The position numbers and the translations under genes were made by a program. 64,000 bases of DNA from Streptomyces sp. NBC_00582. Lineage in GTDB: Bacteria; Actinomycetota; Actinomycetes; Streptomycetales; Streptomycetaceae. Where the stretch lies: contig NZ_CP107772.1 of NCBI RefSeq assembly GCF_036345155.1, positions 10,354,001-10,418,000 on the forward strand, read 5' to 3'. The first letter of the stretch is position 1. The number at the start of each line of letters is the position of its first letter. The notes beneath the pieces are model-generated. The model was not told where the DNA came from. It worked only from the letters and a program-made list of their open reading frames with translations, and searched no databases. Shown here piece by piece: positions 43,697 through 56,484 of the stretch.

Positions 43697-45076
43697 TCAC
43701 TCGGGAAGAAGCGCACCCGCCCGGCTGTCGTCGGCCGCTGCCTCGACCTCGCCCTCGTCCGGAAAGCGCGGCATCAGGAAGAGCAGGACGAGGCTGAGTG
43801 CCGACAACACGCTCGCGACGACCAGTGCGGCGCCGTATCCGCCTGTGCTCTCGGCCGACGCCTCCGTCAAGATCGGGAACAGGCCGATGCCGACGCAGAT
43901 GCTGATTGCCAGGGAGATGCCCTGGAGCTGGGCGAAGACCCGCAGCCCGAAGTAGCGGGACAGCAGGTACGGGCCGACCGTGGACTCCGCTCCCGTCATC
44001 AGGCCCAACACTCCCATCGAGAGGTAGAGCAGCCACACGCTTCCGTTGGCGAGGAAGATCATGAGCGTGCCTACCAGAAGGCACACCGAGAAGGGGACGA
44101 AATCCCGGGCACTCCTCGACCGGTCGAGGGTGAAACCCGCGAGAATCTGCCCGATGATCGATCCCACGAGCAGGACCGACACCGACAGTGCCACAGTCGT
44201 CGCCGAGTAGCCGCGGTCACCGAAGAGCGACACGGCGTTCAGGCGGACGCTCATCACCACGCCGACCGACAGGGCCAGCATGACGTTCAGGAGAAGCCAG
44301 GCGCGAGTGCGCAGGAACTTTCCGACCGGTATGCGGGAGCCGTCCAGTGCTTGCGGAAGGCCCGCCGCGGACTGCCTCTCGGCTGTTTCGGCCGTCTCCG
44401 CCGTCGGCGCCGGCTGGGAGAGCAGGAACACCTGGGCGGAGAAGGAGATCAGCAGGATGCTCGCGCCGATCACCAGCTCGGTCGTCCGCCAGCCGATCGC
44501 GTTGATGGACAGCTGGCACACCGGTGAGAGCACCGCCCCGCCCAGGCTGGCCGAGACACCGATGAGCAGCGAGTAACCCGATCCGCGATGGCGGGGGAAC
44601 CATTGCGCGACGACCTTGTAGACCACGCCGAAGATGGCGGTGTACCCGGCGAAGTTGGCCACCAGAAGAACCAGGATCAGTTGTACGGTGCTCGCGCCGA
44701 TGAGGCCGACTGCGCCGATTCCGAGCGCGTACACGGCCATGCCCGGTATCGCGATGACCCGGGCCCCCCAGCGGTCGACCATGCGACCGGCGAGGGGCAG
44801 GATGAACGGGGCGAGGATCGTCGGGATGTTGAAAGCGGTCAAGGTTTTCGACTGTGCCCAGCCGAAGTCGCTGGACATCGGTTTGACCATGAGCGTGACG
44901 GTCGTGCTGAGGGCCACGGGGCTGAAGAGCATGGCGATTACACAGGCGGCCCCGGCCTTCCACGCCGCCGCTGGATAGTGCCGGAGGCCGGAGAGGTACT
45001 CCCGCAGGGACGGTTTGGGGCGGGGCGGTGTTTCGAGCGGCAGGGTATCGGGGCTGGGCCGGTAAGCGGACATCAT
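43697..45076 (-). CDS. MFS transporter, 12-helix carboxylate/aromatic-acid type
   Basis: 459 residues from ATG 45076 (second ATG at 45073), with AGAAAGG seven bases upstream. Twelve hydrophobic segments in two sets of six are joined by a hydrophilic loop around residues 245-275. Loop 2-3 has the MFS motif A variant LAGRMVDRWGARVI. Composition and helix order resemble oxalate/formate and monocarboxylate antiporter relatives. A 15-bp palindrome shared with the TetR and aldehyde dehydrogenase promoters lies about 100 bp upstream, so the carrier probably imports the substrate of that pathway. Confidence 0.85.
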   Translation of the reverse strand: MMSAYRPSPDTLPLETPPRPKPSLREYLSGLRHYPAAAWKAGAACVIAMLFSPVALSTTVTLMVKPMSSDFGWAQSKTLTAFNIPTILAPFILPLAGRMVDRWGARVIAIPGMAVYALGIGAVGLIGASTVQLILVLLVANFAGYTAIFGVVYKVVAQWFPRHRGSGYSLLIGVSASLGGAVLSPVCQLSINAIGWRTTELVIGASILLISFSAQVFLLSQPAPTAETAETAERQSAAGLPQALDGSRIPVGKFLRTRAWLLLNVMLALSVGVVMSVRLNAVSLFGDRGYSATTVALSVSVLLVGSIIGQILAGFTLDRSRSARDFVPFSVCLLVGTLMIFLANGSVWLLYLSMGVLGLMTGAESTVGPYLLSRYFGLRVFAQLQGISLAISICVGIGLFPILTEASAESTGGYGAALVVASVLSALSLVLLFLMPRFPDEGEVEAAADDSRAGALLPE

Positions 45077-45172
45077 TGTCCTTTCTCGCACAGGCACGGG
45101 GTTTCGCCGTGCTCCAGGCGTAGCGGCCGACAGAGAACGGCTCGCAGGCGGCGATGAGCGCCGCAATGCTGA

Positions 45173-45187
45173 ACTGTACGGACCAGT
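45173..45187. promoter_or_regulatory. TetR-type operator, site A
   Basis: ACTGTACGGACCAGT: arms ACTG/CAGT around N-ACGGA-N. The same 15-base pattern occurs at 51153-51167 and 56136-56150. Confidence 0.6.
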
Positions 45188-45494
45188 GCAGTATCTAGGT
45201 CAAGGTCTCTGCATGAGCAATGTGAGTGGCAGGGCCGTCCGGCGGCCTTCGTCAACGGCCGGGGGAGGGGGAGGATTCGGACGGCTCCCGGTGGCGAAGT
45301 TGCAGCCTGCCCGGCCCACGCCGGGCGGCCCGGCTCCTGCCACCAGGAACGCAGGCCGGACCTCGCCGCCGGCGCCGATGGCTCTGGCGTACCGACGATC
45401 GACTGACTTTCGACATCACCCTTGATTATCGATAATTCTGAAATTACCGTCTGGCCCAGGTGTCCGAGCGGAGTCGTACGCGAACAGGAGTCGA
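45188..45494. promoter_or_regulatory. Divergent control region between MFS and FAH-family genes
   Basis: No gene is supported in these 307 bases. The AT-rich palindrome ATTATCGATAAT (45425-45436), 59 bases before the FAH-family start, is a candidate operator for a second regulator, possibly the GntR protein at 49072. A frame that stays open from 45186 to 45425 is low-complexity and has no ribosome binding site. Confidence 0.4.
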
Positions 45495-46367
45495 ATGGTG
45501 AGGATTGCCAGTTATGAAGGCCGGCTGACCCTGCTGGTGGACGGCGGCGGTATCGATGTCGCGACGGCGACCGGTGGGTCGTTCACGCCCGACGTGCTGG
45601 ACGCGATCGAGCGCTGGGACGAGCTGACCGAGGTGGCGGCAGGGCTGCGCGGGCCGGTGCGGCCGGTGGATCCGGCCCGGCTGGACGCGCCGGTGCGGCT
45701 GCCCCGTCAGGTGTTCGCAGTAGGGCTCAACTACCGCGATCACGCCGCGGAGGCCGGCATCCGGGAGCTGCCGACAGCCCCGCCCGTCTTCACGAAGTTC
45801 CCCGTCTGCGTCACCGGCCCCGAGGCGACGGTGACGCTTCCCAGCACGGACGTCGACTACGAGGCCGAGCTGGTGGTGGTGATCGGCCGGCGTGCCGAAC
45901 ACATCGCCGAGGGAGTCGCCTGGGGTCACGTGGCCGGGCTGATGGTGGGCCAGGACCTGTCGGAACGGAAGGTTCAGCTGGCCGGCCCGGTGCCTCAGTT
46001 CTCGCTCGGCAAGTCGTTTCCCGGCTTCGGGCCGACCGGCCCCGCCATCGTCTCGCCGGACGAGTTCGCCGACCCAGACGCCCTCGAAATAGGTTGTTCA
46101 GTGGCGGACTGGGTCCTCCAGTCGGGCAACACGAAAGACATGATCTTCCCCGTTCCCGAGCTGATCGCGCGCTTGTCGCGCGTCTGCCCGCTGCTGCCGG
46201 GAGACCTGATCTTCACCGGCACGCCCGCCGGGGTGGGCATGAGCCACACCCCGCCGCGGTTCCTGCGCCCCGGCGAGACGCTGACGACCTTCGTGGAGAC
46301 CGTCGGGACGATCCACACGACCTTCACCGTCGGCCCCGGTCACGACGAGGCCGCACCGGAGGAATGA
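45495..46367 (+). CDS. Fumarylacetoacetate-hydrolase-family protein
   Basis: 290 residues from ATG 45495. The C-terminal large domain is complete: FAVGLNYRDHAAEAG, VFTKFPVCVTGP, the metal ligands in DYEAELVVVIG and GQDLSERKVQLAG, LGKSFPGFGPTGPAIV and DLIFTGTPAGVGM. Family members hydrolyse acylpyruvates (C-C bond), decarboxylate oxaloacetate or hydrate 2-oxopent-4-enoate. In an operon with an acetoacetyl-CoA-synthetase-type enzyme, release of a 3-oxoacid such as acetoacetate from an acylpyruvate-like compound is a reasonable inference. Confidence 0.9.
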   Translation: MVRIASYEGRLTLLVDGGGIDVATATGGSFTPDVLDAIERWDELTEVAAGLRGPVRPVDPARLDAPVRLPRQVFAVGLNYRDHAAEAGIRELPTAPPVFTKFPVCVTGPEATVTLPSTDVDYEAELVVVIGRRAEHIAEGVAWGHVAGLMVGQDLSERKVQLAGPVPQFSLGKSFPGFGPTGPAIVSPDEFADPDALEIGCSVADWVLQSGNTKDMIFPVPELIARLSRVCPLLPGDLIFTGTPAGVGMSHTPPRFLRPGETLTTFVETVGTIHTTFTVGPGHDEAAPEE

Positions 46368-46390
46368 CGACGCCGCATCGGAGAGACGAC

Positions 46391-46675
46391 ATGGCACTGC
46401 ACGGGCTCGGGATCATCACCGTCGGCGTCCCCGACGTGGCCACGACGGCCAACTGTTACCAGAACTTCGGACTCGCCCTCTCCACGCCCGGCGATGGCGG
46501 CACCGCCGGCCTGTCCACCATGGACGGCGGCGACTGCGTCGTCGACGACCAGCTCTGGACACCGCAGGACCGGACCGGCGCCCGCGCGCTCGCCAGATGG
46601 GGGCCGCCGCCGCCCCCGTCGTTCCTGGAGCCCGAAGGCCTGGCCGAGCTCATGACGGGTAGGCACAGCCGATGA
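46391..46675 (+). pseudogene. VOC-family protein fragment
   Basis: From ATG 46391 (GGAGAGACG before it) 94 codons start like an extradiol dioxygenase N-terminal half (MALHGLGIITVGVPDVATTA, YQNFGLALS) and end abruptly. A full enzyme is about 300 residues and its metal-binding half is missing. The stop overlaps the next gene's ATG (ATGA at 46672). It is probably an internal-deletion remnant that still couples translation of the ligase, but a small functional VOC protein cannot be excluded. Confidence 0.55.
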
Positions 46676-48684
46676 GCCGACCGCTGTACGAACTGCCCCC
46701 AAGGATCCGGCGTGAGACACGGGCCGCCGGTTACCTCGACTGGCTACGGGAGTCCCGGGGCCTGTCCCTGCCCGGCTGGGAGGAACTGTGGCGGTGGTCG
46801 GTCACCGACCCGGAGGGATTCTGGGGATCGTTGTGGGACCACTTCGGCATCGGGTCGCGGGCCCCGTACGACTGCGTCCTGGCCGATCCCCGCATGCCCG
46901 GCGCCGTATGGTTTCCCGGAGTACGGATCAACTACGCCGAGCACTGCCTCGGGGACGCGGAGGACGCCCAGCGCACCGCGGTCCTCGCCCGCTCGGAGAC
47001 GCGTGGACCCGTCCGGCTGTCGTACGCCGACCTGCGTGACCAGGTCGCCCGCGCCCGAGAAGGTCTGAGGCGGCTGGGCGTCGGCAAGGGCGACCGGGTC
47101 GTGTCCTGTCTGCCCAACATCCCCGAGGCGGTTGTCGCCTACCTCGCCACCGCGAGCCTGGGCGCGGTCTGGGCCTCCTGCGCTCCGGAGTTCGGCGTGC
47201 CGAGCGTGATCGACCGGTTCGGCCAGCTCGAACCGAAGGTCCTGCTGGCCGTCCCGGGCTACGTCTACGGCGGGAAGCAGATTGACCGGCGGGCCGAAGT
47301 GGCGCGCATCCGCGCGGCCCTGCCGAGCGTCGAGCGGGTCGTCGACGTGCCGTACGGCCCCGGCACGCTGCCGGACGCGGTCGGCTGGGACGCCCTGCTC
47401 GCCGATTCCGGGCCACTGGTCTTCGAGCCGGTGCCGTTCGACCATCCGCTGTGCGTGCTGTTCTCCTCCGGCACCACGGGAAAGCCCAAGGCGATCGTGC
47501 ACGGCCACGGGGGGATCCTGCTCGAACACCTCAAGAGCCTGGCACTGCACTGGGACCTGCGGGCCGGCGACCGCATGCTGTGGTTTACCACCACGGGCTG
47601 GATGATGTGGCAGGTCCTCGTTTCCTGCCTGCTCACGCGCGCCTCGATCGTGCTCCTTGACGGCAACCCGCTCCACCCCGACCTGCGGCACCAGTGGCGG
47701 GTGGCCGAAGAGACCCGCGCCACCCACTTCGGGTCCAGCCCCGGCTATCTCATGGCCTGCCGGAAGGCAGGGGTGCGACCGGCCGAGGAGTTCGACCTGT
47801 CCGCCGTACGACACCTGCCCGTCGCCGGGAGTCCGCTGCCGGCCGAGGGGTTCCGGTGGATCCACGAGCAGTTCGGCGACACCGTTCTGCTCAACGTCGG
47901 CAGCGGCGGCACCGACGTCTGCACCGGTCTCGTCCAGGGTTCGCCGCTGCAGCCGGTGTGGGAGGGCGAGATGTCGGGGCCCGCGCTCGGCGTGCACGCT
48001 CAGGCGTTCGATCCCCGGGGCGAGCCCGTGGTCGGCCGGCTGGGGGAACTGGTCGTCATCGCGCCGATGCCGTCCATGCCGGTCGGACTGTGGGGCGACG
48101 ACCCCGGGGCGAGCCGCTACCGCGCCACCTACTTCGACCGGTACCCGGGCATCTGGCGGCACGGCGACTGGATCCGCTTCGGCGAGGACCGCGGCTGTGT
48201 CATCACCGGCCGTTCCGACGCCACCCTCAACCGCGGCGGGGTGCGGCTCGGCACCGCGGAGTTCTACCGGGTCGTCGAGGAGATGCCCGAGATCGACGAC
48301 AGCCTCGTCGTCCATCTGGAGGACCCGGAGGGCGGCCCCGGGGAGCTGGCGCTGTTCGTCGTCACACGGCAGTCGCTGGACGAGGTCCTGCGGGACCGGC
48401 TGAAGGCCGCCATCCGCTCGGCGCTGTCGCCCCGGCACGTCCCGGACACCGTCGAGGCAGTCCCCGCCATCCCCTACAACCGTACCGGCAAGAAGCTCGA
48501 GGTCCCCGTCAAGCGCATCCTGCGCGGAGCCGACCCGGACGACGTCGTCGCCCCCGGCTCGATCAGCGATCCGGCCTCGCTCGACGCGTTCGTCGCCATG
48601 GCCCGGCGCCGTCGGGTTCCTGTGCGCCTCGCCGCACCGTCGACGAGCGCGCCACCTACCAACCCACCGAACAGCAAGGAGTGA
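46672..48684 (+). CDS. Acetoacetyl-CoA synthetase-type ligase
   Basis: 670-residue adenylate-forming enzyme of the acetoacetate-CoA ligase branch (ACAS N-terminal segment WEELWRWSVTDPEGFWGSLW, then VWFPGVRINYAEHCL). The AMP-binding P-loop is FSSGTTGKPKAIVHGHGG; the branch-typical TTTGWMMWQVLVSCLL and NVGSGGTDVCTG follow. The C-terminal catalytic lysine region is YNRTGKKLEVPVKR. It activates a 3-oxoacid to its CoA thioester with ATP. It is coupled to the VOC fragment by ATGA and lies in the FAH-family operon, so it likely captures the acid released by that hydrolase. Confidence 0.9.
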   Translation: MSRPLYELPPRIRRETRAAGYLDWLRESRGLSLPGWEELWRWSVTDPEGFWGSLWDHFGIGSRAPYDCVLADPRMPGAVWFPGVRINYAEHCLGDAEDAQRTAVLARSETRGPVRLSYADLRDQVARAREGLRRLGVGKGDRVVSCLPNIPEAVVAYLATASLGAVWASCAPEFGVPSVIDRFGQLEPKVLLAVPGYVYGGKQIDRRAEVARIRAALPSVERVVDVPYGPGTLPDAVGWDALLADSGPLVFEPVPFDHPLCVLFSSGTTGKPKAIVHGHGGILLEHLKSLALHWDLRAGDRMLWFTTTGWMMWQVLVSCLLTRASIVLLDGNPLHPDLRHQWRVAEETRATHFGSSPGYLMACRKAGVRPAEEFDLSAVRHLPVAGSPLPAEGFRWIHEQFGDTVLLNVGSGGTDVCTGLVQGSPLQPVWEGEMSGPALGVHAQAFDPRGEPVVGRLGELVVIAPMPSMPVGLWGDDPGASRYRATYFDRYPGIWRHGDWIRFGEDRGCVITGRSDATLNRGGVRLGTAEFYRVVEEMPEIDDSLVVHLEDPEGGPGELALFVVTRQSLDEVLRDRLKAAIRSALSPRHVPDTVEAVPAIPYNRTGKKLEVPVKRILRGADPDDVVAPGSISDPASLDAFVAMARRRRVPVRLAAPSTSAPPTNPPNSKE

Positions 48685-48685
48685 C

Positions 48686-49057
48686 ATGAGTACGGCAGCA
48701 TTGTTGCCCATCGCGATCCTCGGAGCCGGCATCGGCGGTCTGGCCGCGGCCGGCAGGCTGCGGGCGGAAGGCTGTGACGTCGAGGTGTACGACCAGGCGG
48801 CCGTCAAACGGGAACGCTGCGCCGCGCTCGGCCTGCGCGCCAGCACGGTACGGATCCTGGAGGACTGGGGCCTGGACGGCACGTACGAGTCGTACGTGTA
48901 CCCCTTCGACGCCCGCGCCGCCGCGCGCCCCGCTCCCCGCCGAGATCCAGCGCATGTCTCGCGAGATGTCGCCGTTCCTCCGGCTGCAGCCGGCCGCCCC
49001 CGAGGCGTCCCGGTGGCCACGGCGGTGAAGCCCGAAGACCCGAGCACGAGAACGTAA
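48686..49057 (+). pseudogene. FAD-monooxygenase N-terminal fragment
   Basis: ATG 48686, one base after the ligase stop, opens LPIAILGAGIGGLAAAGRLR and DVEVYDQAAVKRERCAALGL, a Rossmann FAD-binding start of a class A hydroxylase. Homology ends after about 75 residues (LEDWGLDGTYESYVYP), and the remaining codons are low-complexity. The DG and GD motifs are absent, so it cannot be active. Confidence 0.65.
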
Positions 49058-49071
49058 GGCAGTATGGGCCC

Positions 49072-49803
49072 ATGCCGGCAACCGACGCAGCGGTCACCCG
49101 AACGGAACGCGCCTACCAGCAGATCCGGACCGACATCCTGGCGGGCCGCCTCAGGCCGGGCTCGCCACTGCGCCTGGCCGCCCTGGCCGGTGAGTTCTCG
49201 GTCAGCATGTCCGTCGTACGGGAGGCGCTGAACCGTCTGAGCGGGCACGGACTGGTCACGACGACGCCGAACCAGGGTTTCCGGGTCACCCCGCTCTCCC
49301 GCGCCGACCTGGAAGACCTCACCGCACTGCGCCTCACCCTGGAGTGCCAGGCCCTGGCGGGCTCCATCGCCTCCGCCGACGTCCGCTGGGAGGGCGAGGT
49401 GGTCTCGGCCCACCACGTGCTGGAACGAACGCCGATCTCCGACGGCCGGTCGCCGGGCGCGAGCGACGAGTGGACCGAGGCACACGCCGCGTTCCACGAC
49501 GCCCTCGTCGCGGCCTGCGGCAGGCCACGCCTGCTCGCACTGGTGCGGTCCCTGCGGGACACCGCCGAGGTGTACCGGCAGTGGGCCGGTCCGCTGGGTG
49601 AGAAGCGCGGCCGCGATGTCGAGGTCGAGCACCGTGCCCTGATGGAGCTCGCAACCGCACGACGCACCGAAGACGCGGTCGAGGCCCTGCGCGCGCACAT
49701 CCAGCGCACTACCGACATCCTGCTCGCGCAGGATATTGCCGGGACCGACGCCGTGCCCGCCGGCGACGCTCGGGGCAGCCATGGCGCGATCCTCCTCCGG
49801 TGA
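49072..49803 (+). CDS. GntR-family regulator, FCD subfamily
   Basis: 243 residues. The winged helix is AYQQIRTDILAGRLRPGSPL, LAALAGEFSVSMSVVREALN and GLVTTTPNQGFRV. The FCD ligand-binding domain (ADLEDLTALRLTLECQALAG, EAHAAFHDALVAACGRPRLL, EHRALMELATARRTEDAVEA) contains the Asp/His metal set (D, H of HAAFHDAL, H of VEHRAL). Such proteins repress catabolic operons and sense carboxylic acids. It follows the FAH/ligase operon and may control it. ATG 49072 has no strong ribosome binding site. Confidence 0.88.
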   Translation: MPATDAAVTRTERAYQQIRTDILAGRLRPGSPLRLAALAGEFSVSMSVVREALNRLSGHGLVTTTPNQGFRVTPLSRADLEDLTALRLTLECQALAGSIASADVRWEGEVVSAHHVLERTPISDGRSPGASDEWTEAHAAFHDALVAACGRPRLLALVRSLRDTAEVYRQWAGPLGEKRGRDVEVEHRALMELATARRTEDAVEALRAHIQRTTDILLAQDIAGTDAVPAGDARGSHGAILLR

Positions 49804-50130
49804 CTCGATGGTCGACCGGCTCGTGCGGACACTGGAGGGGTTCGGTCCGCAGACGCCGGTCCTGACAGTCAGTGAGCTGTCCGCGCGGGCATGACTGCCG
49901 CTGTCCACCACTTCCAGCCTGGTAAACCAGCTGGTCCACCGCTGGCTGCTCGCCCGGGACGCGGCTCGCCGCGTGCGGATCGGCGTCCGGATGTGGGAGC
50001 CGGCGTCGCGGGCGTCGCCGGCCCTGGGGCTGCGCAGTGCGGCGATGCCGTTCCTGGAGGATCTGCACGCCGTGGTGGGCCACCACGCCCAGACAGGGGT
50101 GCTGGAACCCGATCCTGCCGATGTCCAGCA
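49781..50130 (+). pseudogene. IclR-family regulator, frameshifted
   Basis: ATG 49781 gives MVDRLVRTLEGFGPQTPVLT then VSELSARA and a TGA; one base on, the frame continues LPLSTTSSLVNQLVHRWLLA, RRVRIGVRMWEPASRASPAL and AAMPFLEDLHAVVGHHAQTG. This is the helix-turn-helix and the beginning of the effector domain of an IclR repressor. The rest is replaced by oxidoreductase sequence at about 50140. Confidence 0.7.
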
Positions 50131-50140
50131 CGCCGAGCTG

Positions 50141-50300
50141 CTCGGTACGCCGTGGACCCTGCTGTACGGCGGCCGCACCCGGTCGTCGATGGCCTTCCTC
50201 CCGGCGCTGGAGAAGTACGGCGAGCGCGTCGAGGTCCGCCCGCAGGACGAGTGACGAGTAGGGCCTCCTCGACCTGAGCGCCGCCCTGTGGAATCCGTTC
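50141..50300 (+). pseudogene. Phthalate-dioxygenase-reductase-like fragment
   Basis: In the same frame as the IclR remnant, PWTLLYGGRTRSSMAFLPAL, EKYGERVEVRPQDE, then a stop and, shifted, GLLDLSAAL. This is the NAD-binding segment of VanB/phthalate dioxygenase reductase-type ferredoxin reductases (LLYGGRSRASMAFLDEL-like). Flavin and 2Fe-2S parts are missing. It indicates that a Rieske-type demethylase system once lay here. Confidence 0.6.
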
Positions 50301-50351
50301 TCCGGAGCGGAGTGTGAGGCGGTGTCTGCGTCGGGAGAACGCGGGGGCGGG

Positions 50352-51062
50352 TCAGTGTGTGCGCGGCTCTGCGGTCCAGGGGAAGATGTCGCCGACCGTG
50401 CGAAGGGGCGCTTCGGGCAGCACTTCGGGGTCCCGCGAGCGCAGGGCGCGCAGGAACAGGGTGGTAGTCCAGCGGGCGTGCGCGGTCAGTCGGGCCGTGT
50501 CGAGATGCGGCTTCGGGGTCAACAGGGCGTCCATCTGCGGGCTGGCCGCCGCCATGCGGACGAACATCGCGGCGTACGCGTGGGCGTCCCGCAGCGTGTA
50601 GCCGTGCCGTCGGCCGTCCTCCAGCAGCGTCGCGGCCACGACATCGACGACGTGCGGCACGCCGAGCGTGCGCAGTGCCGCGGTCAGTTCGGGGCGGCGG
50701 GTTGTCTCCGTGGCCATGACGCGGACGAGGGCGAGGAACTGCGGGCCGGTCGTCGCCTCGAGAAGCTTGGTGACGATGTGCGTCAGCCTCTCCTGCGGGT
50801 CGTCGACGGATGAAAGCATCGCCTGGTCGAGGTCGAAGTCCAGCGAGGAGCCGCCGCGCTCGATTACGGCGCGGAAGAGTTCCACCTTGTCGCCGAAGTG
50901 GGCGTAGACGGTGGTCTTCGAGACGCCTGCCTGGGCCGCGACGGCATCCATTGACGTCTGGTCGAAGCCGCGGGCGAGGAACACCTCGACGGCAGCGTCG
51001 AGTACGGTCTCCCGCTTGCCCCGGGACCCCGTCGTCTTGCGGGGGTGTCCCTTGACCGTCAT
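50352..51062 (-). CDS. TetR-family repressor, likely local regulon controller
   Basis: 236 residues from ATG 51062, preceded by AAGGAGGAG; a longer frame to 51086 lacks support. The N-terminal helix-turn-helix is TVLDAAVEVFLARGFDQTSM, DAVAAQAGVSKTTVYAHFGD, and the C-terminal helical domain (TetR_C of the AcrR/AefR type) follows. It is divergent from the two-component monooxygenase operon. The intergenic region holds the ACTGGACGGTGCAGT palindrome, also found before the MFS carrier and the aldehyde dehydrogenase. Autoregulation and control of all three units is the simplest reading. Confidence 0.88.
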   Translation of the reverse strand: MTVKGHPRKTTGSRGKRETVLDAAVEVFLARGFDQTSMDAVAAQAGVSKTTVYAHFGDKVELFRAVIERGGSSLDFDLDQAMLSSVDDPQERLTHIVTKLLEATTGPQFLALVRVMATETTRRPELTAALRTLGVPHVVDVVAATLLEDGRRHGYTLRDAHAYAAMFVRMAAASPQMDALLTPKPHLDTARLTAHARWTTTLFLRALRSRDPEVLPEAPLRTVGDIFPWTAEPRTH

Positions 51063-51152
51063 CTCGCTCCTCCTTGGCCCGCTCACTCCGCAGGTGCCCG
51101 TACTGCTTCGCCTGTTGACCTGGAAGGGACCCTATCGTACCGTCGATGTTGT

Positions 51153-51167
51153 ACTGGACGGTGCAGT
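51153..51167. promoter_or_regulatory. TetR-type operator, site B
   Basis: ACTGGACGGTGCAGT in the region between the TetR gene and the monooxygenase operon, 59 bases before the latter's ATG. Same pattern as sites A (45173) and C (56136). Confidence 0.65.
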
Positions 51168-51225
51168 TCAATTTCGAGTCTGCCGGGACGGCACCGACCC
51201 CCGGAATCCCTGAAGGAGCCGCCTG

Positions 51226-52446
51226 ATGAGTGAGCAGAATGCCTCGCGCTCCGGCGCCGCACGCGGCCTTGTGCCACTGTTGCGCCGCAACGCCCTCGCA
51301 GGAGAGGAGATCGGCGCGCTGACCCCGGAAACCCTCCAGGCGATGCACGAGGCCGGCGTGTTCAAGATCATGCTTCCGCCCGAACTCGGCGGGGACGCCC
51401 TCGGCGCACGCGACACCGTCGAGGTCATCGCGGCGCTGGCGGAGGGGGACGGAGCGGCCGCATGGACCGTGTTCGTATCGGGCGGCATCCGCAATCTGCT
51501 CGGCTTTCCCGAGCAGGCCGTCGAGGAGGTGTTCAAGGAGGTCGACACCTGGGTCGGGCCGCTCGCTGTGGGTGCCTCGGTGTTCTCCCCCCTCGTGGGC
51601 GCGGCACGCGCGGTGGATGGGGGCTTCCTCGTCTCCGGCAAGTGGGCCTTCGGCAGCGGATGCAAGCATGCGGCCTGGGCGGTCGTCGGCGTGGAGTACG
51701 AGGACGCGCAGGGCCGACTCCGCCGGGCGATGGCGCTCCTGCGGCGTGAGCAGTACACGATCGTGGACGACTGGCGGGTCATGGGCCTGAAGGGCACGTC
51801 GAGCAACTCGATCACGGTCGAGGGAGAGGTCTTCGTCCCTGAGCACCGAGTCCTTGACATGGCCGATCTCCCCGCGGCCATGGACGGCGTCCGCGAGCGT
51901 TACTCGGGCGTCGGATTCCGCAACGGGGCGCGGGCGCTGATGGTCATCACCTGTCTCACCAACGTGGCGATCGCCCTCGGCATGGCCCAAGGCACCCTGG
52001 ACTGCTTCATCGAGCAGGCCAGGGCACGCAAGCCGTTCAATCTGCCTTATCCGACGGTGGCGGACATGCCGTCCACCCAGGTGTCCGCCGGTACGGCGCG
52101 AGCGATGGTCAATATCGCCGAAGCCGTGATCCTTCGGCACGCCGACGAGGTGGACCGTCGGGCGCTGGCGGGGGAGGACTTCACCGCGGCGGAGGAGTCC
52201 GAGATCACCATGGACCTCGTCTACGCCGTCCGGCTCTGCGCGGACGCGGTGGACCGACTCCAACTCGCCCTCGGCTCTTCGACGGTGAGCCTGAACAACC
52301 CGATCCAGCGCTTCGTGCGCGACATACGCGTGCTGGCGACCCACGGCGCCATCCGGTTCGACCCGATGGCTGAGATCAGCGGCCGCCAGGTCCTCGGCCT
52401 CGAGCCCCTGTCCATGTTCGCCAGCGGCCTGCCGCAGGTCGGCTGA
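51226..52446 (+). CDS. Two-component flavin monooxygenase, oxygenase subunit (acyl-CoA dehydrogenase fold)
   Basis: 406 residues with the acyl-CoA-dehydrogenase-like fold of group D flavin monooxygenases (HsaA, p-hydroxyphenylacetate hydroxylase C2, DszC relatives): ALTPETLQAMHEAGVFKIML, VEVIAALAEGDGAAAWTVFV, GGFLVSGKWAFGSGCKHAAW, VMGLKGTSSNSITVEGEVFV. It uses reduced flavin delivered by a separate reductase, encoded directly downstream (3-bp gap). The substrate is probably a phenol or another aromatic. ATG 51226 follows GAAGGAG. An operator-like palindrome precedes it. Confidence 0.88.
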   Translation: MSEQNASRSGAARGLVPLLRRNALAGEEIGALTPETLQAMHEAGVFKIMLPPELGGDALGARDTVEVIAALAEGDGAAAWTVFVSGGIRNLLGFPEQAVEEVFKEVDTWVGPLAVGASVFSPLVGAARAVDGGFLVSGKWAFGSGCKHAAWAVVGVEYEDAQGRLRRAMALLRREQYTIVDDWRVMGLKGTSSNSITVEGEVFVPEHRVLDMADLPAAMDGVRERYSGVGFRNGARALMVITCLTNVAIALGMAQGTLDCFIEQARARKPFNLPYPTVADMPSTQVSAGTARAMVNIAEAVILRHADEVDRRALAGEDFTAAEESEITMDLVYAVRLCADAVDRLQLALGSSTVSLNNPIQRFVRDIRVLATHGAIRFDPMAEISGRQVLGLEPLSMFASGLPQVG

Positions 52447-52449
52447 GAG

Positions 52450-53025
52450 GTGATCCCGATGGTTGACCGGGAGCGTGTGCGGCGCGACGGCGTCCCAAGG
52501 GACGAACGTCGGCCGGAGCCGGCGACCGCCCTCGACGAGCGGACCCTGCGAGAGGCGTTCAGCTGCTTCCCCAGCGGAGTGATCGCAATGTGCGGGACAG
52601 AGGGCGACGACCCGGTGGGTATGGCCGTGAGCTCGTTCACTTCGGTGTCGCTGGCTCCCCCGCTGGTTTCGGTCTGCCTGCAGACCTCGTCGCGCACCTG
52701 GCGAAGCCTGAGGGCACTGCCCCAGCTGGGCCTGAGCGTACTGGGGGAGGGCCAGGACACGGTGTGTCGTGCGCTGGCCGGCCGGGAGGAGGACCGTTTC
52801 ACGGGCGTGCGCTGGAAGGCGACTGAGCACGGCGCCGTGTTCGTGCACGGCGCGATCGCGTGGTTCGACTGCACACTGCGCGACGAACTGCCCGCTGGCG
52901 ACCACGCCATCGCACTGCTGGAGGTCGGCCGTCTGTGGACGGTTTCCGCCGCCGACCCCCTGGTCTTCCACGGCAGCCGATTCCGGCGCCTGGACAGCGG
53001 TGAGCGATCGGCGGTGCCCGCCTGA
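52450..53025 (+). CDS. Flavin reductase subunit of the monooxygenase
   Basis: 191 residues from GTG 52450 (or ATG 52459), close behind the oxygenase gene. The FMN-binding split-barrel core is LREAFSCFPSGVIAMCG, GMAVSSFTSVSLAPPLVSVC and TWRSLRALPQLGLSVLGEGQ, ending in EVGRLWTVSAADPLVFHGSR. These HpaC/HsaB-type reductases make FADH2 or FMNH2 with NAD(P)H for the partner oxygenase. Confidence 0.9.
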   Translation: MIPMVDRERVRRDGVPRDERRPEPATALDERTLREAFSCFPSGVIAMCGTEGDDPVGMAVSSFTSVSLAPPLVSVCLQTSSRTWRSLRALPQLGLSVLGEGQDTVCRALAGREEDRFTGVRWKATEHGAVFVHGAIAWFDCTLRDELPAGDHAIALLEVGRLWTVSAADPLVFHGSRFRRLDSGERSAVPA

Positions 53026-53077
53026 CGTGGATCCGCCGGTCGCCCGAGCCGCAACCCCAACGAAAGCGAGCCTTTCC

Positions 53078-53953
53078 ATGTCTGCTGTACCCACCCCTGC
53101 GACCGTCGCCGCCAAGCGGCTGGTGGTCGACTTCTTCACCGCTGTCATCGCCGCTCGCAACGTCGACGCCATACCCGATTACGTCGCCCCCGAGCTGATT
53201 CAGCACGGCGCGGACATCCCGGACGGCGTCCAGGCGTACACCGAACACCTGCGAGACCGTTTCCGGCGTGAGGCCCGGGCCGAGGACGCGGACGGCGTCC
53301 GTCAGCCGCCGGAACCCGTCTTCATCATTGCCGACAACGACCTGGTCTGTGTCTGCCGTTACCTGCCGCAGCCCGATCCGGACGTTCCCGGAGCCACCTT
53401 CGACTACTACACGTTCACCACCTACCGAGTCCGGGACGGGCGGATCACGGAGCGGTGGCCGTCCGTCAACAAGGTCGCTCTGCCGCAGCCGCCGGCACCG
53501 GACACGCCGTCGCGCGCGGTTCTCGTGTCGACGCCGCCCGGGAACGACATGGAGGCGAACAAACGTCTGGTGACTGACTTCTACCGCTGCATCTTCGACG
53601 CGCGGAACCCCGACGCCGTCAAGGACTTCGTCACGGAGGACTACCACCAGTACGTCGCCCACTACCCGACCGGTCGCGCCGGGCTGGAGAAGTTCGTTCG
53701 CATCCAGTTCCCCGACGGCCCCGTGCCGACGCCCGCCGAGCCGCTCAACCCGCCGGCGCTGCTCCTCGCCCAGGGCGACATCGTCGTGTGCGCCGGGCTG
53801 CTGCCCCAGCCCGACCCCGACGGCGGGACATACCCGTACTACGTCTACGACGCCTTCCGCGTCCGGGACGGGCTGCTGTCCGAGCACTGGAGCGGCGTCA
53901 CCAAGGCGGCCCTGCCCCGGCACCCCGGACCTCCCCCGCGGGGTCACAGCTGA
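53078..53953 (+). CDS. Tandem SnoaL-like (NTF2-fold) protein
   Basis: 291 residues with two consecutive SnoaL-like domains: AAKRLVVDFFTAVIAARNVD with YTFTTYRVRDGRITERWPSV, and ANKRLVTDFYRCIFDARNPD with YVYDAFRVRDGLLSEHWSGV. The two halves share their length and most motifs, so they arose by duplication; usual relatives have one domain and dimerise. Both keep the cavity His (LIQHGADI, YHQYVAHY). Such proteins act as cyclases, dehydratases or isomerases. I start at ATG 53078. It follows the flavin reductase by 52 bp in one operon. Confidence 0.85.
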   Translation: MSAVPTPATVAAKRLVVDFFTAVIAARNVDAIPDYVAPELIQHGADIPDGVQAYTEHLRDRFRREARAEDADGVRQPPEPVFIIADNDLVCVCRYLPQPDPDVPGATFDYYTFTTYRVRDGRITERWPSVNKVALPQPPAPDTPSRAVLVSTPPGNDMEANKRLVTDFYRCIFDARNPDAVKDFVTEDYHQYVAHYPTGRAGLEKFVRIQFPDGPVPTPAEPLNPPALLLAQGDIVVCAGLLPQPDPDGGTYPYYVYDAFRVRDGLLSEHWSGVTKAALPRHPGPPPRGHS

Positions 53954-54002
53954 CCACGGATCGTCCCTCGTACTCCCTCTCACCGACAAGAAGGGCTTCT
54001 TC

Positions 54003-54581
54003 GTGCCCACGTTGCATGTAGTGGTCGGCAGTACCCGCCCCGGCCGTCTGGCGCTGCCCATCGCGCAGTGGGCGGCGCAGGCCGCCGAACAGCACGGCGG
54101 CTTCGACGTCCAACTCGTCGACCTGGCCGAGTTCGGACTTCCGCTCCTCGACGAACCGGCGCACCCGCGTACGGGGCAGTACGCCCACGAGCACACCCGT
54201 GCCTGGAGCGCCACGGTCGACGAGGCGGACGCCTTCGTCTTCGTGACGCCCGAGTACAACTTCGGTCCTCCCGCCGCATTGCTGAACGCGATCTCCTACC
54301 TCCACCGGGAGTGGCTGTGCAAGCCGGCCGCGTTCGTGAGTTATGGCGGCGTGGCGGCCGGCCTGCGATCGGTGCAGGTACTCAAGCAGGTACTGACGAC
54401 CCTGAAGGTGATGCCGATCCCGGAGGGCGTCGCGATCCCCTTCGTGTTCCAGCTCGTCCAGGACGGCAGCTTCCAGCCAACCCCGCCCCTGGAGGCGGCC
54501 GCCACGGACATGCTCGACGAACTTCTGCGCTGGACCGAGCCGCTGCAGCTCCTGCGCAAGGGGCTCGTGCCCGCGCAGTGA
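54003..54581 (+). CDS. NADPH-dependent FMN reductase (flavodoxin-like)
   Basis: 192 residues from GTG 54003. The FMN phosphate loop is VVGSTRPGRLALPIAQW, and the isoalloxazine contact motif is VFVTPEYNFGPPAALLNAIS (PEYN). The rest fits the FMN_red family of azo/quinone/chromate reductases. It lies last in the monooxygenase operon, 49 bp after the tandem SnoaL gene, and may reduce quinone products or supply reduced flavin. A strong hairpin follows. Confidence 0.9.
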   Translation: MPTLHVVVGSTRPGRLALPIAQWAAQAAEQHGGFDVQLVDLAEFGLPLLDEPAHPRTGQYAHEHTRAWSATVDEADAFVFVTPEYNFGPPAALLNAISYLHREWLCKPAAFVSYGGVAAGLRSVQVLKQVLTTLKVMPIPEGVAIPFVFQLVQDGSFQPTPPLEAAATDMLDELLRWTEPLQLLRKGLVPAQ

Positions 54582-54599
54582 TCCCGCACTGGCCGGTGT

Positions 54600-54643
54600 G
54601 CAGGTGAGGGCCGACGGCGAATCCGCCGTCGGCCCTCACCTGC
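54600..54643. terminator. Bidirectional terminator
   Basis: Twenty-base perfect arms (54600-54619 and 54624-54643) with a four-base AATC loop between the convergent FMN reductase and aldehyde dehydrogenase genes. Confidence 0.88.
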
Positions 54644-54648
54644 GCGGG

Positions 54649-56112
54649 TCAGAATGGGTAGACGGGGATCTCGTCCCGGACCGTGACCCACTGCTGTTCG
54701 GTGAAGGCTTCTAGGTTGGCCGCCACGCCGCCGTGACGGGACCCGTTGCCGGACGCGCCGACGCCGCCGAAGGGCACGGTGGCCTCGTCGTTCACGGTCT
54801 GGTCGTTGATGTGGACGAGCCCGGTGGGGATGCGGTCGGCCAGCGCCAGACCCCTGGCCGTGTCGCGGGTCAGGATGCCGAGGGAGAGGCCGTATTCGGT
54901 GTCAGCGGCGAGCCGGACGGCCTCGTCCAGGTCCTGGAAGGCGACGACGGGTGCGACAGGGCCGAAGATCTCCTCGGTGTAGGCACGCGCGGTCAGCGGT
55001 ACGTCGGCCAGGACCGTGGGCCGGTAGAACAGGCCCTCGTACGTGCCGCCCGCGGCCAGCCGTGCTCCGGCGGCCAGACTGTCGGTGACGACGGAGTGGG
55101 CGGCCTTCAGCTGCATTTCGTCGATCATGGGACCGACCGCGACCGCGTTTGTCGCCGGGTCTCCCACGGGCGCCGCGTCGGCCCGCTCGGCTAGCCGTGC
55201 GGTGTACTCCTCGGCGATGGAGGCGTGGACCAGATGCCGGCTTGAGGCCATGCAGATCTGCCCGGCGTGGTGGAACGAGCCGAACGCGCCCGCCGACACC
55301 GCCTTGTCCAGGTCGGCGTCCTCCAGGACGATCAGGGCCGAGTTGCCGCCCAACTCCAGATGCACCCGCTTCAAGCGCTGCGCCGCCGCCGTGGCGATGG
55401 CCTTGCCGGCCCGGGTCGACCCGGTGAACGCGATGACCGGTACACGCGGGTTGTCCACCAGCGCTGCTCCGACGTCGGCGCCGCCGGGCAGGACGTGCAG
55501 CACGCCCTCGGGGAGGCCGGCCTCCTCGAAGACCCGCGCGATCGTGACGCCCCCGCAGACCGCCGTGCGCGGGTCGGGCTTGAGGACGACCGCGTTGCCC
55601 AGGGCCAATGCCGGCGCGACCGCCCGCATGGCGAGCACCATCGGTGCGTTGAACGGGGAGATCACGCCCACGACGCCCACTGGCCTGCGCCGCGAGAACG
55701 ACAGCCGGTCCTCGACCGAGCGGAGCACCTCACCGAACGGGGCCGCCGCGAGGCCCGCGGCCTCGTAGCACTCCTCGGCGGCTCCGTTCGACGTCTGGAA
55801 CTCCGCGAACGGGCGCAAGGCACCCGACTCGCGCACGATCCAGTCCGCGATCTCGGCCTGGTACTTCTCGAACAGGGCCCCGGCACGCCGCAGAACCTGT
55901 GCCCGCTCGATGTACGGCAGGGCCGCCCAGGCACGCTGTGCCGCCGCGGCCTGTCCCACGGCACGGTGGAGGTCGGCGGGCGTGGCGGCGCCCACCCGGC
56001 CCAGCACTTTGCCGGTGGCCGGTTCGACGGAGTCGTAGGGCTCACCGGACCCGTCCACCCACCTACCGGAGAAGACGCGCCCCTGCCAGTCATGATCCTC
56101 GAGAAAAGCCAT
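54649..56112 (-). CDS. Aldehyde dehydrogenase, benzaldehyde-dehydrogenase-like
   Basis: 487 residues. NAD(P)-dependent aldehyde dehydrogenase with the cofactor motif FTGSTRAGKAI, general base Glu253 (HLELGGN) and nucleophile Cys287 (HHAGQICMASSR). The sequence style (ISPFNAPMVLAMRAVAPALA, TVNDEATVPFGGVGASGNGS) resembles vanillin/benzaldehyde dehydrogenases. It would oxidise an aldehyde intermediate to the acid. The palindrome 24 bases upstream of the ATG matches those at the TetR and MFS promoters, tying it to the monooxygenase pathway although it is on the opposite strand. Confidence 0.92.
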   Translation of the reverse strand: MAFLEDHDWQGRVFSGRWVDGSGEPYDSVEPATGKVLGRVGAATPADLHRAVGQAAAAQRAWAALPYIERAQVLRRAGALFEKYQAEIADWIVRESGALRPFAEFQTSNGAAEECYEAAGLAAAPFGEVLRSVEDRLSFSRRRPVGVVGVISPFNAPMVLAMRAVAPALALGNAVVLKPDPRTAVCGGVTIARVFEEAGLPEGVLHVLPGGADVGAALVDNPRVPVIAFTGSTRAGKAIATAAAQRLKRVHLELGGNSALIVLEDADLDKAVSAGAFGSFHHAGQICMASSRHLVHASIAEEYTARLAERADAAPVGDPATNAVAVGPMIDEMQLKAAHSVVTDSLAAGARLAAGGTYEGLFYRPTVLADVPLTARAYTEEIFGPVAPVVAFQDLDEAVRLAADTEYGLSLGILTRDTARGLALADRIPTGLVHINDQTVNDEATVPFGGVGASGNGSRHGGVAANLEAFTEQQWVTVRDEIPVYPF

Positions 56113-56135
56113 GATGCTCCCGTCCCAATTAGTGC

Positions 56136-56150
56136 ACTGTACCGTTCAGT
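56136..56150. promoter_or_regulatory. TetR-type operator, site C
   Basis: ACTGTACCGTTCAGT; the reverse complement ACTGAACGGTACAGT agrees with site B at 12 of 15 bases. It lies directly upstream of the aldehyde dehydrogenase ATG at 56112. Confidence 0.65.
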
Positions 56151-56484
56151 TTAGTTTCACTTCCGACGTGTGGCTAGACGGTCCGGGTCTGCGGCTGACG
56201 GGGCTGACGCCTCTGCCGCTCGACTCCTGGTGGCGGGCGGTCTCCACCGCCCCCGACCGCGCCTCGCCCACGATCACGGACGAGCCGCACACCGCGACGG
56301 AGCCGCCGACGCTTGCGGCGGAGGCGGACAGCGCGAGGGCGTAGTCGGGGCGATGCCGGACGGGGTGGCCGCGCCCGCGGCGCGGGCAGCACCAGCGCCC
56401 GAAAGGGGCGCTGGGGGAGGAACTGCGCGACCAGCCGACCACAACCCGCACAATGGGTCGCGCGGCGGCGGGCAGTATGAGCGC

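Follow-up and report, generated by a model that had tools for sequence, protein, structure and literature searches.

TetR-family repressors are known both with long operators and with roles in aromatic catabolism. In published accounts, two CprB dimers occupy opposite faces of a 22-bp site and QacR recognizes 28 bp (PMC4150764), and RolR, a TetR-type repressor with a phenolic effector, controls resorcinol catabolism in Corynebacterium glutamicum (PMC3086911). The stretch of DNA analysed here (the window: 64 kb of Streptomyces sp. NBC_00582, positions 10,354,001–10,418,000 of contig 1 in a genome, G000, of 11,145,185 bases) carries three 15-bp palindromic sites. These are predicted, with a probability that we put at about 0.88, to serve as operators for the TetR-family product of the gene at 50352–51062 and to control uptake, hydroxylation and aldehyde oxidation. 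The prediction is based on the sites, on their co-conservation with the TetR gene and with certain enzyme types, and on a near-constant spacing to start codons.

The likeness to QacR and CprB lies in the length of the operator, and two-dimer binding is a possible model here too. The 5-bp-phased ACTG half-sites belong to the present operator set, and the sequence similarity between the window TetR and CprB (1ui5) is weak (37.3 bits). As with RolR, a TetR repressor is tied to aromatic catabolism (by prediction in the present case), but RolR (3AQS/3AQT) is absent from the best 60 of 118 PDB sequence matches to the window TetR. After 8wrf (76.4 bits), the nearest PDB sequences include AefR 3cdl and NalC 8ke8, with which the TetR_C_7 domain is shared, whereas overall similarity is low (51.8 and 53.4 bits, respectively). 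AefR and NalC are known for other targets. On the enzyme side, HsaAB and p-hydroxyphenylacetate hydroxylase (HPAH) resemble the window genes in pairing an oxygenase with a flavin reductase. The differences are that neither window protein reaches the cut-off of any NCBIfam model listed, and that SnoaL-like and FMN reductase genes are added. No published account of the present regulon or motif was found in a literature search, not exhaustive, judged by title and the start of the abstract.

Three sites and their genes

In the original prediction, an asymmetric 15-bp motif preceded three transcription units. Exact matches (ACTGNACGGWNCAGT) were found at all three positions and on the strands given, namely at 45173–45187 (+), 51153–51167 (+) and 56136–56150 (−), and the statement that the window holds no other copy was upheld, with no further match in the 64 kb at two or fewer mismatches. 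The scan returned six rows (three places on two strands) against a mean of 2.28 rows in shuffled sequences, six being reached in 2 of 100 shuffles. The 15-bp sites are real, but their asymmetric form was replaced by the symmetric palindrome ACTGNACNGTNCAGT, which describes them better; sites 2 and 3 match it exactly and site 1 is off by one base. The asymmetric "GGW" of the first description arose because it was drawn from three sites only. Across 31 exact sites from the window and its relatives, the middle base of the core is G or C about equally often, and symmetric sites are common in the relatives; the ACGGW form was dropped on these grounds. The symmetry of the core across the 31 sites is itself a consequence of the pattern chosen.

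Conservation extends beyond the core. The flanks of the 31 sites, which had no role in site selection, are conserved out to 13 bp from the centre, giving an operator of about 25–27 bp in which the 15-bp palindrome is accompanied by outer ACTG half-sites displaced outward by exactly 5 bp. Letters of the outer half-site match at 67% at the 5-bp offset, compared with 12–29% at 16 other offsets; at least three of its four letters are present on at least one side in 24 of 29 distinct sites (on both sides in 8), against 0–4 sites at eight other offsets. The palindrome is also nearly completed when its register is moved by 5 bp in either direction, with shifted-register matrix scores of 17.7 for site 1, 11.0 for site 2, and 18.0 and 19.5 for site 3. 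This phasing suggests that TetR might occupy shifted registers or bind as a pair of dimers, and the operator has the trait of the two-dimer class, since it exceeds about 20 bp (conserved over 27 bp) and carries more than two half-sites. When scored with a 27-bp matrix trained solely on loci from other genomes, the three sites reached 27.9, 34.2 and 36.8, respectively; no score above 20.1 arose in 60 simulated 64-kb sequences.

Predicted operator 1 (45167–45193), which has one departure from the palindrome, lies 99 bp upstream of the start codon of an MFS transporter gene, presumed to serve uptake (43697–45073, minus strand; Pfam MFS_1, 99.1 bits; 56% identity to the site-bearing MFS protein of a related locus, L025). 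Predicted operator 2 (51147–51173) sits between divergent genes, 90 bp from that of TetR and 58 bp from that of a hydroxylase. The TetR-family regulator, a presumed repressor of 236 residues on the minus strand, shows the traits of the TetR/AcrR family: a TetR_N DNA-binding domain (64.2 bits against a Pfam cut-off of 24), a helical C-terminal ligand domain of the AefR-like TetR_C_7 type (39.5 against 22) and a palindrome adjoining its own gene. Its helix–turn–helix (HTH) is VSKTTVYAHFGDK, and its AlphaFold2 model is all-helical with a mean pLDDT of 77.1.

The plus-strand run that begins across from TetR opens with a two-component flavin-dependent hydroxylase of the HsaA/HPAH-C2 type (51226–52446), acyl-CoA dehydrogenase-like by Pfam and with 2rfq as its best PDB sequence. 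Together with a separate flavin reductase partner (52450–53025; Pfam Flavin_Reduct, 126 bits), it shows the trait of HsaA/HPAH-type oxygenases, but its score against the NCBIfam HsaA model, 181.9 bits, is under the cut-off of 450, so that HsaA equivalence is not assigned. A protein with two SnoaL-like stretches follows (53123–53953, start as given by the gene caller; Pfam SnoaL_2 twice), and the run ends with an NADPH-dependent FMN reductase-like protein (54003–54581; Pfam FMN_red, 125.2 bits; 91% identity to that of L025). Predicted operator 3 (56130–56156) is 23 bp upstream of the start codon of a minus-strand aldehyde dehydrogenase (ALDH) gene (54649–56112; Pfam Aldedh). This ALDH is of the aromatic-aldehyde type: its nearest PDB sequence is 4-hydroxybenzaldehyde dehydrogenase 9jw2, salicylaldehyde and vanillin dehydrogenases fall within the first eight rows, and it is 91 and 93% identical to the site-bearing ALDHs of L025 and L026, respectively.

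TetR binding, repression and an aromatic ligand, all deduced from sequence, would combine as follows. Ligand-free TetR would sit on the three operators and keep the hydroxylase run, the transporter, the ALDH and its own gene repressed; an aromatic substrate or intermediate would then release it.

Conservation with the regulator in relatives

A search made with the TetR sequence only returned 24 loci, in 13 of which (L025–L037) the TetR proteins are 48–80% identical to that of the window. Ten of these nearest loci are from Streptomyces and the others from Nonomuraea, Nocardia and Trebonia, and their maps place the site before genes for TetR, hydroxylase, SnoaL, flavin reductase, MFS, VOC and ALDH proteins. 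Counts were made on 12 loci picked by TetR sequence alone, leaving out genes with an upstream gap of less than 40 bp, L030 (short and near L031), L023, L024, L038–L048 and TetR genes of less than 44% identity (one case, the 37% TetR in L029); some of the 12 share a genome (L028 with L033; L026 with L034 and L035). At one mismatch or fewer, 11 of 14 TetR genes have the site upstream, as do 39 of 73 regulon-type genes compared with 6 of 91 other genes (p 2e-11 by Fisher's test, a value that is too small and exaggerates independence because the loci are related). Once overlapping sites are counted once, 27 of 27 exact and 13 of 16 one-mismatch sites (40 of 43) are intergenic, in loci where intergenic DNA makes up 39,568 of 235,411 bases (17%).

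Spacing is also kept. The distance from site to start codon is 12–130 bp in 43 of 45 cases, the other two being 201 and 204 bp. Locus L025 marks the same three promoters at 96 bp (MFS), 53 and 90 bp (hydroxylase and TetR) and 22 bp (ALDH), against 99, 58 and 90, and 23 bp in the window, and the ALDH site of L026 is likewise 22 bp from the start codon.

At the level of whole genomes, ten that carry TetR relatives hold 46 exact sites, versus 8 for the reversed pattern, whereas 148 genus genomes (a 150-genome sample minus G000 and G011) hold 35 versus 79. The 148 include G104, carrier of a 48% TetR, which has zero exact sites. G156 is probably the same assembly as G011, given identical site coordinates. 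TetR orthologues are rare: with the own genome counted each time, the genus samples of 150 and 392 genomes yielded three each and the class sample of 394 genomes yielded one; the samples overlap, the three of the 392 are the same as those of the 150, the one of the 394 is G000, and seven first-look candidates were scored per listed genome. Because the larger samples added no orthologues, there is no held-out set beyond the TetR-search loci. A plasmid search for the TetR protein gave 625 records with a match, all below 60% identity. The expectation that the site would be conserved beside TetR orthologues was thus borne out, with sites enriched ahead of MFS, hydroxylase, flavin reductase, SnoaL, ALDH and VOC genes, and a probable TetR regulon over the three promoters, as first proposed, is supported by the sites and by their conservation with the TetR gene.

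Alternative readings

The regulon might be real but work differently, with TetR acting as an activator, or with genes that clear a harmful compound (e.g. by MFS efflux) and have no role in growth. We regard this as rather improbable. TetR-family activators exist and FasR is the best NCBIfam match of the regulator, at 56.8 far below the cut-off of 330, but the position of nearly all sites close to start codons fits steric repression. The transport direction of the MFS protein is only presumed, which leaves room for removal; in the relatives, however, the site precedes genes of ring-hydroxylating and ring-cleavage type (VOC, MhpA-like and FAH), and this fits catabolism.

Smaller still is the chance that another TetR-family protein, encoded elsewhere in the genome, owns the sites while the local TetR has another or an overlapping target. 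Fifteen loci were fetched around exact sites, one each from 15 of the 27 genomes with an exact site (G000 and G011 aside), and in 8 of the 15, from genomes free of the orthologue, the core stands beside distant TetR genes (27–37% identity). The core is therefore not private to TetR proteins of the window type but is shared with other TetR proteins, and an HTH alignment is consistent with TetR proteins of similar HTH sharing an operator. Ownership by another protein would leave the 11 of 14 TetR genes preceded by the site, and the excess of exact sites over the reversed pattern in TetR-bearing genomes but not in the 148 others, without a ready account.

Several further results, like the 8 loci above, count against a regulon of the local TetR. 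No upstream site was found at 3 of the 14 TetR genes (one in L026, two in L037); the L026 cluster has two sites elsewhere, and one of the L037 TetR genes has a one-mismatch site downstream, before a hydroxylase gene. The 48% TetR relative in G104 (L024) lacks a site in 19.9 kb. Among 11 more distant loci, nine (L038, L039, L041 and L043–L048) have no site at one mismatch or fewer, and L040 and L042 have one each, with one mismatch, upstream of TetR. A second gene set in the own genome (see below) has no site at a matrix score of 5 or more in 20 kb. Lastly, the genome-wide count of the symmetric pattern is not above chance. Many random hits had been named at the outset as telling against the regulon; the places turned out not to be many, 13 at one mismatch or fewer (sites 2 and 3 exact, and 11 with one mismatch, including site 1), three of them in this 11 kb, but the reversed pattern gave 18. 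Since this count is no better than chance, the weight rests on clustering, position and conservation. That the three sites are chance matches with no regulatory role can be dismissed as next to impossible, despite 10 further places within one mismatch in an 11-Mb genome, on the kept start-codon spacing, matrix scores above all 60 simulations and the mostly intergenic sites of the 12 loci.

Ten of the 13 places lie outside the window, seven of them in called genes. L006 (ACTGAACGGATCAGT), also an exact match to the earlier asymmetric pattern, was rejected as a fourth site as it lies within a 513-residue frame, which has no Pfam match and which the gene caller skipped, leaving the site intergenic. 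The remaining two are weak one-mismatch sites just upstream of genes: L010 (1501–1515), before a CoA-transferase III gene, scored 15.4 with the 27-bp matrix, and L013 (1501–1515), before an endonuclease-VII-domain gene, scored 13.0.

As a separate observation, in other genomes of the genus the core recurs two to three times, with starts 23–27 bp apart, in L069 (2766–2830), L071 (3047–3084), L079 (3013–3054) and L082 (2912–2953). These repeated cores, some of them one-mismatch copies, adjoin more distant TetR genes, for example by an MFS gene (L071) or an alpha/beta-hydrolase gene (L082).

Wider pathway and neighbouring genes

In L025, L026, L088 and L090, the site precedes sets that add an RPE65-family dioxygenase, a VOC protein, an MhpA-like FAD hydroxylase and a FAH hydrolase. 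L088 (which overlaps the contig stretch of L033) and L090 were chosen for carrying sites, so they illustrate the wider regulon and are no test of conservation. Model searches were run on the L025 proteins. The dioxygenase has a clear RPE65 domain (385.5 bits against a cut-off of 27) and, as PDB neighbours, carotenoid (first) and lignostilbene dioxygenases; its best NCBIfam model is lignostilbene dioxygenase, at 242.9 bits against 800, so equivalence is not assigned. The VOC protein resembles the N-terminal part of extradiol dioxygenases, under the cut-off, and the MhpA-like hydroxylase scores 403.4 against 390 for subfamily NF004829 and 466.4 against 546 for equivalog NF004831.

Because RPE65-type, MhpA-like, VOC and FAH genes follow the site in relatives, an aromatic substrate converted via an aldehyde is proposed: the pathway probably imports a phenolic compound and degrades it by way of an aromatic aldehyde. 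A stilbene-like substrate is perhaps conceivable, as a guess inside this aromatic reading. The idea of the original prediction that uptake, hydroxylation and aldehyde oxidation act on one compound is plausible and gains weight from the larger regulon of the relatives, the compound being a matter of deduction. A more ambitious version would have a rare accessory TetR of actinomycetes with stacked 5-bp-repeat operators govern dispersed modules for the breakdown of a stilbene-like phenolic from plants, with opposite-face dimers in three registers giving graded repression; we consider this version doubtful.

The genes from FAH to GntR (45495–49803) were put aside as targets of site 1 and are probably not regulon members. 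They have a palindrome of their own, a perfect one (ATTATCGATAAT) at 45425–45436, 58 bp ahead of the FAH gene (45495) and unique in the genome at one mismatch or fewer. It may be the operator through which the GntR/FCD regulator (49072–49803) controls this run. Membership is further disfavoured by the low identity of the window FAH protein to the regulon FAH of L025 (38%) and L026 (41%), and by two pieces from apparently cut-down genes, neither with a significant match to the regulon VOC and FAD proteins: a 94-residue piece without a Pfam match between FAH and the acetoacetyl-CoA ligase (46391–46675) and a 123-residue FAD-binding piece (48686–49057).

By contrast, the regulon FAH of L025 is 73% identical to a copy in the second set of the own genome, at 4815–12330 of L095 (about 10,338,815–10,346,330 of contig 1). 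This set holds IclR-type, FAH, FAD hydroxylase, VOC, ALDH and RPE65-type dioxygenase genes, of which that for the dioxygenase is some 53 kb away from site 1.

Taken as proposed, the local catabolic TetR regulon would be a conserved control system of an ordinary kind, and a new example with good support from sequence comparison. It would provide a regulon with a defined predicted operator for an uncharacterized aromatic pathway in actinomycetes. The operator could be used to find further genes of the pathway and to pin down the inducer, it might also serve to build a sensor for aromatic compounds, and its 5-bp phasing may offer a clean case for how TetR dimers share one site.

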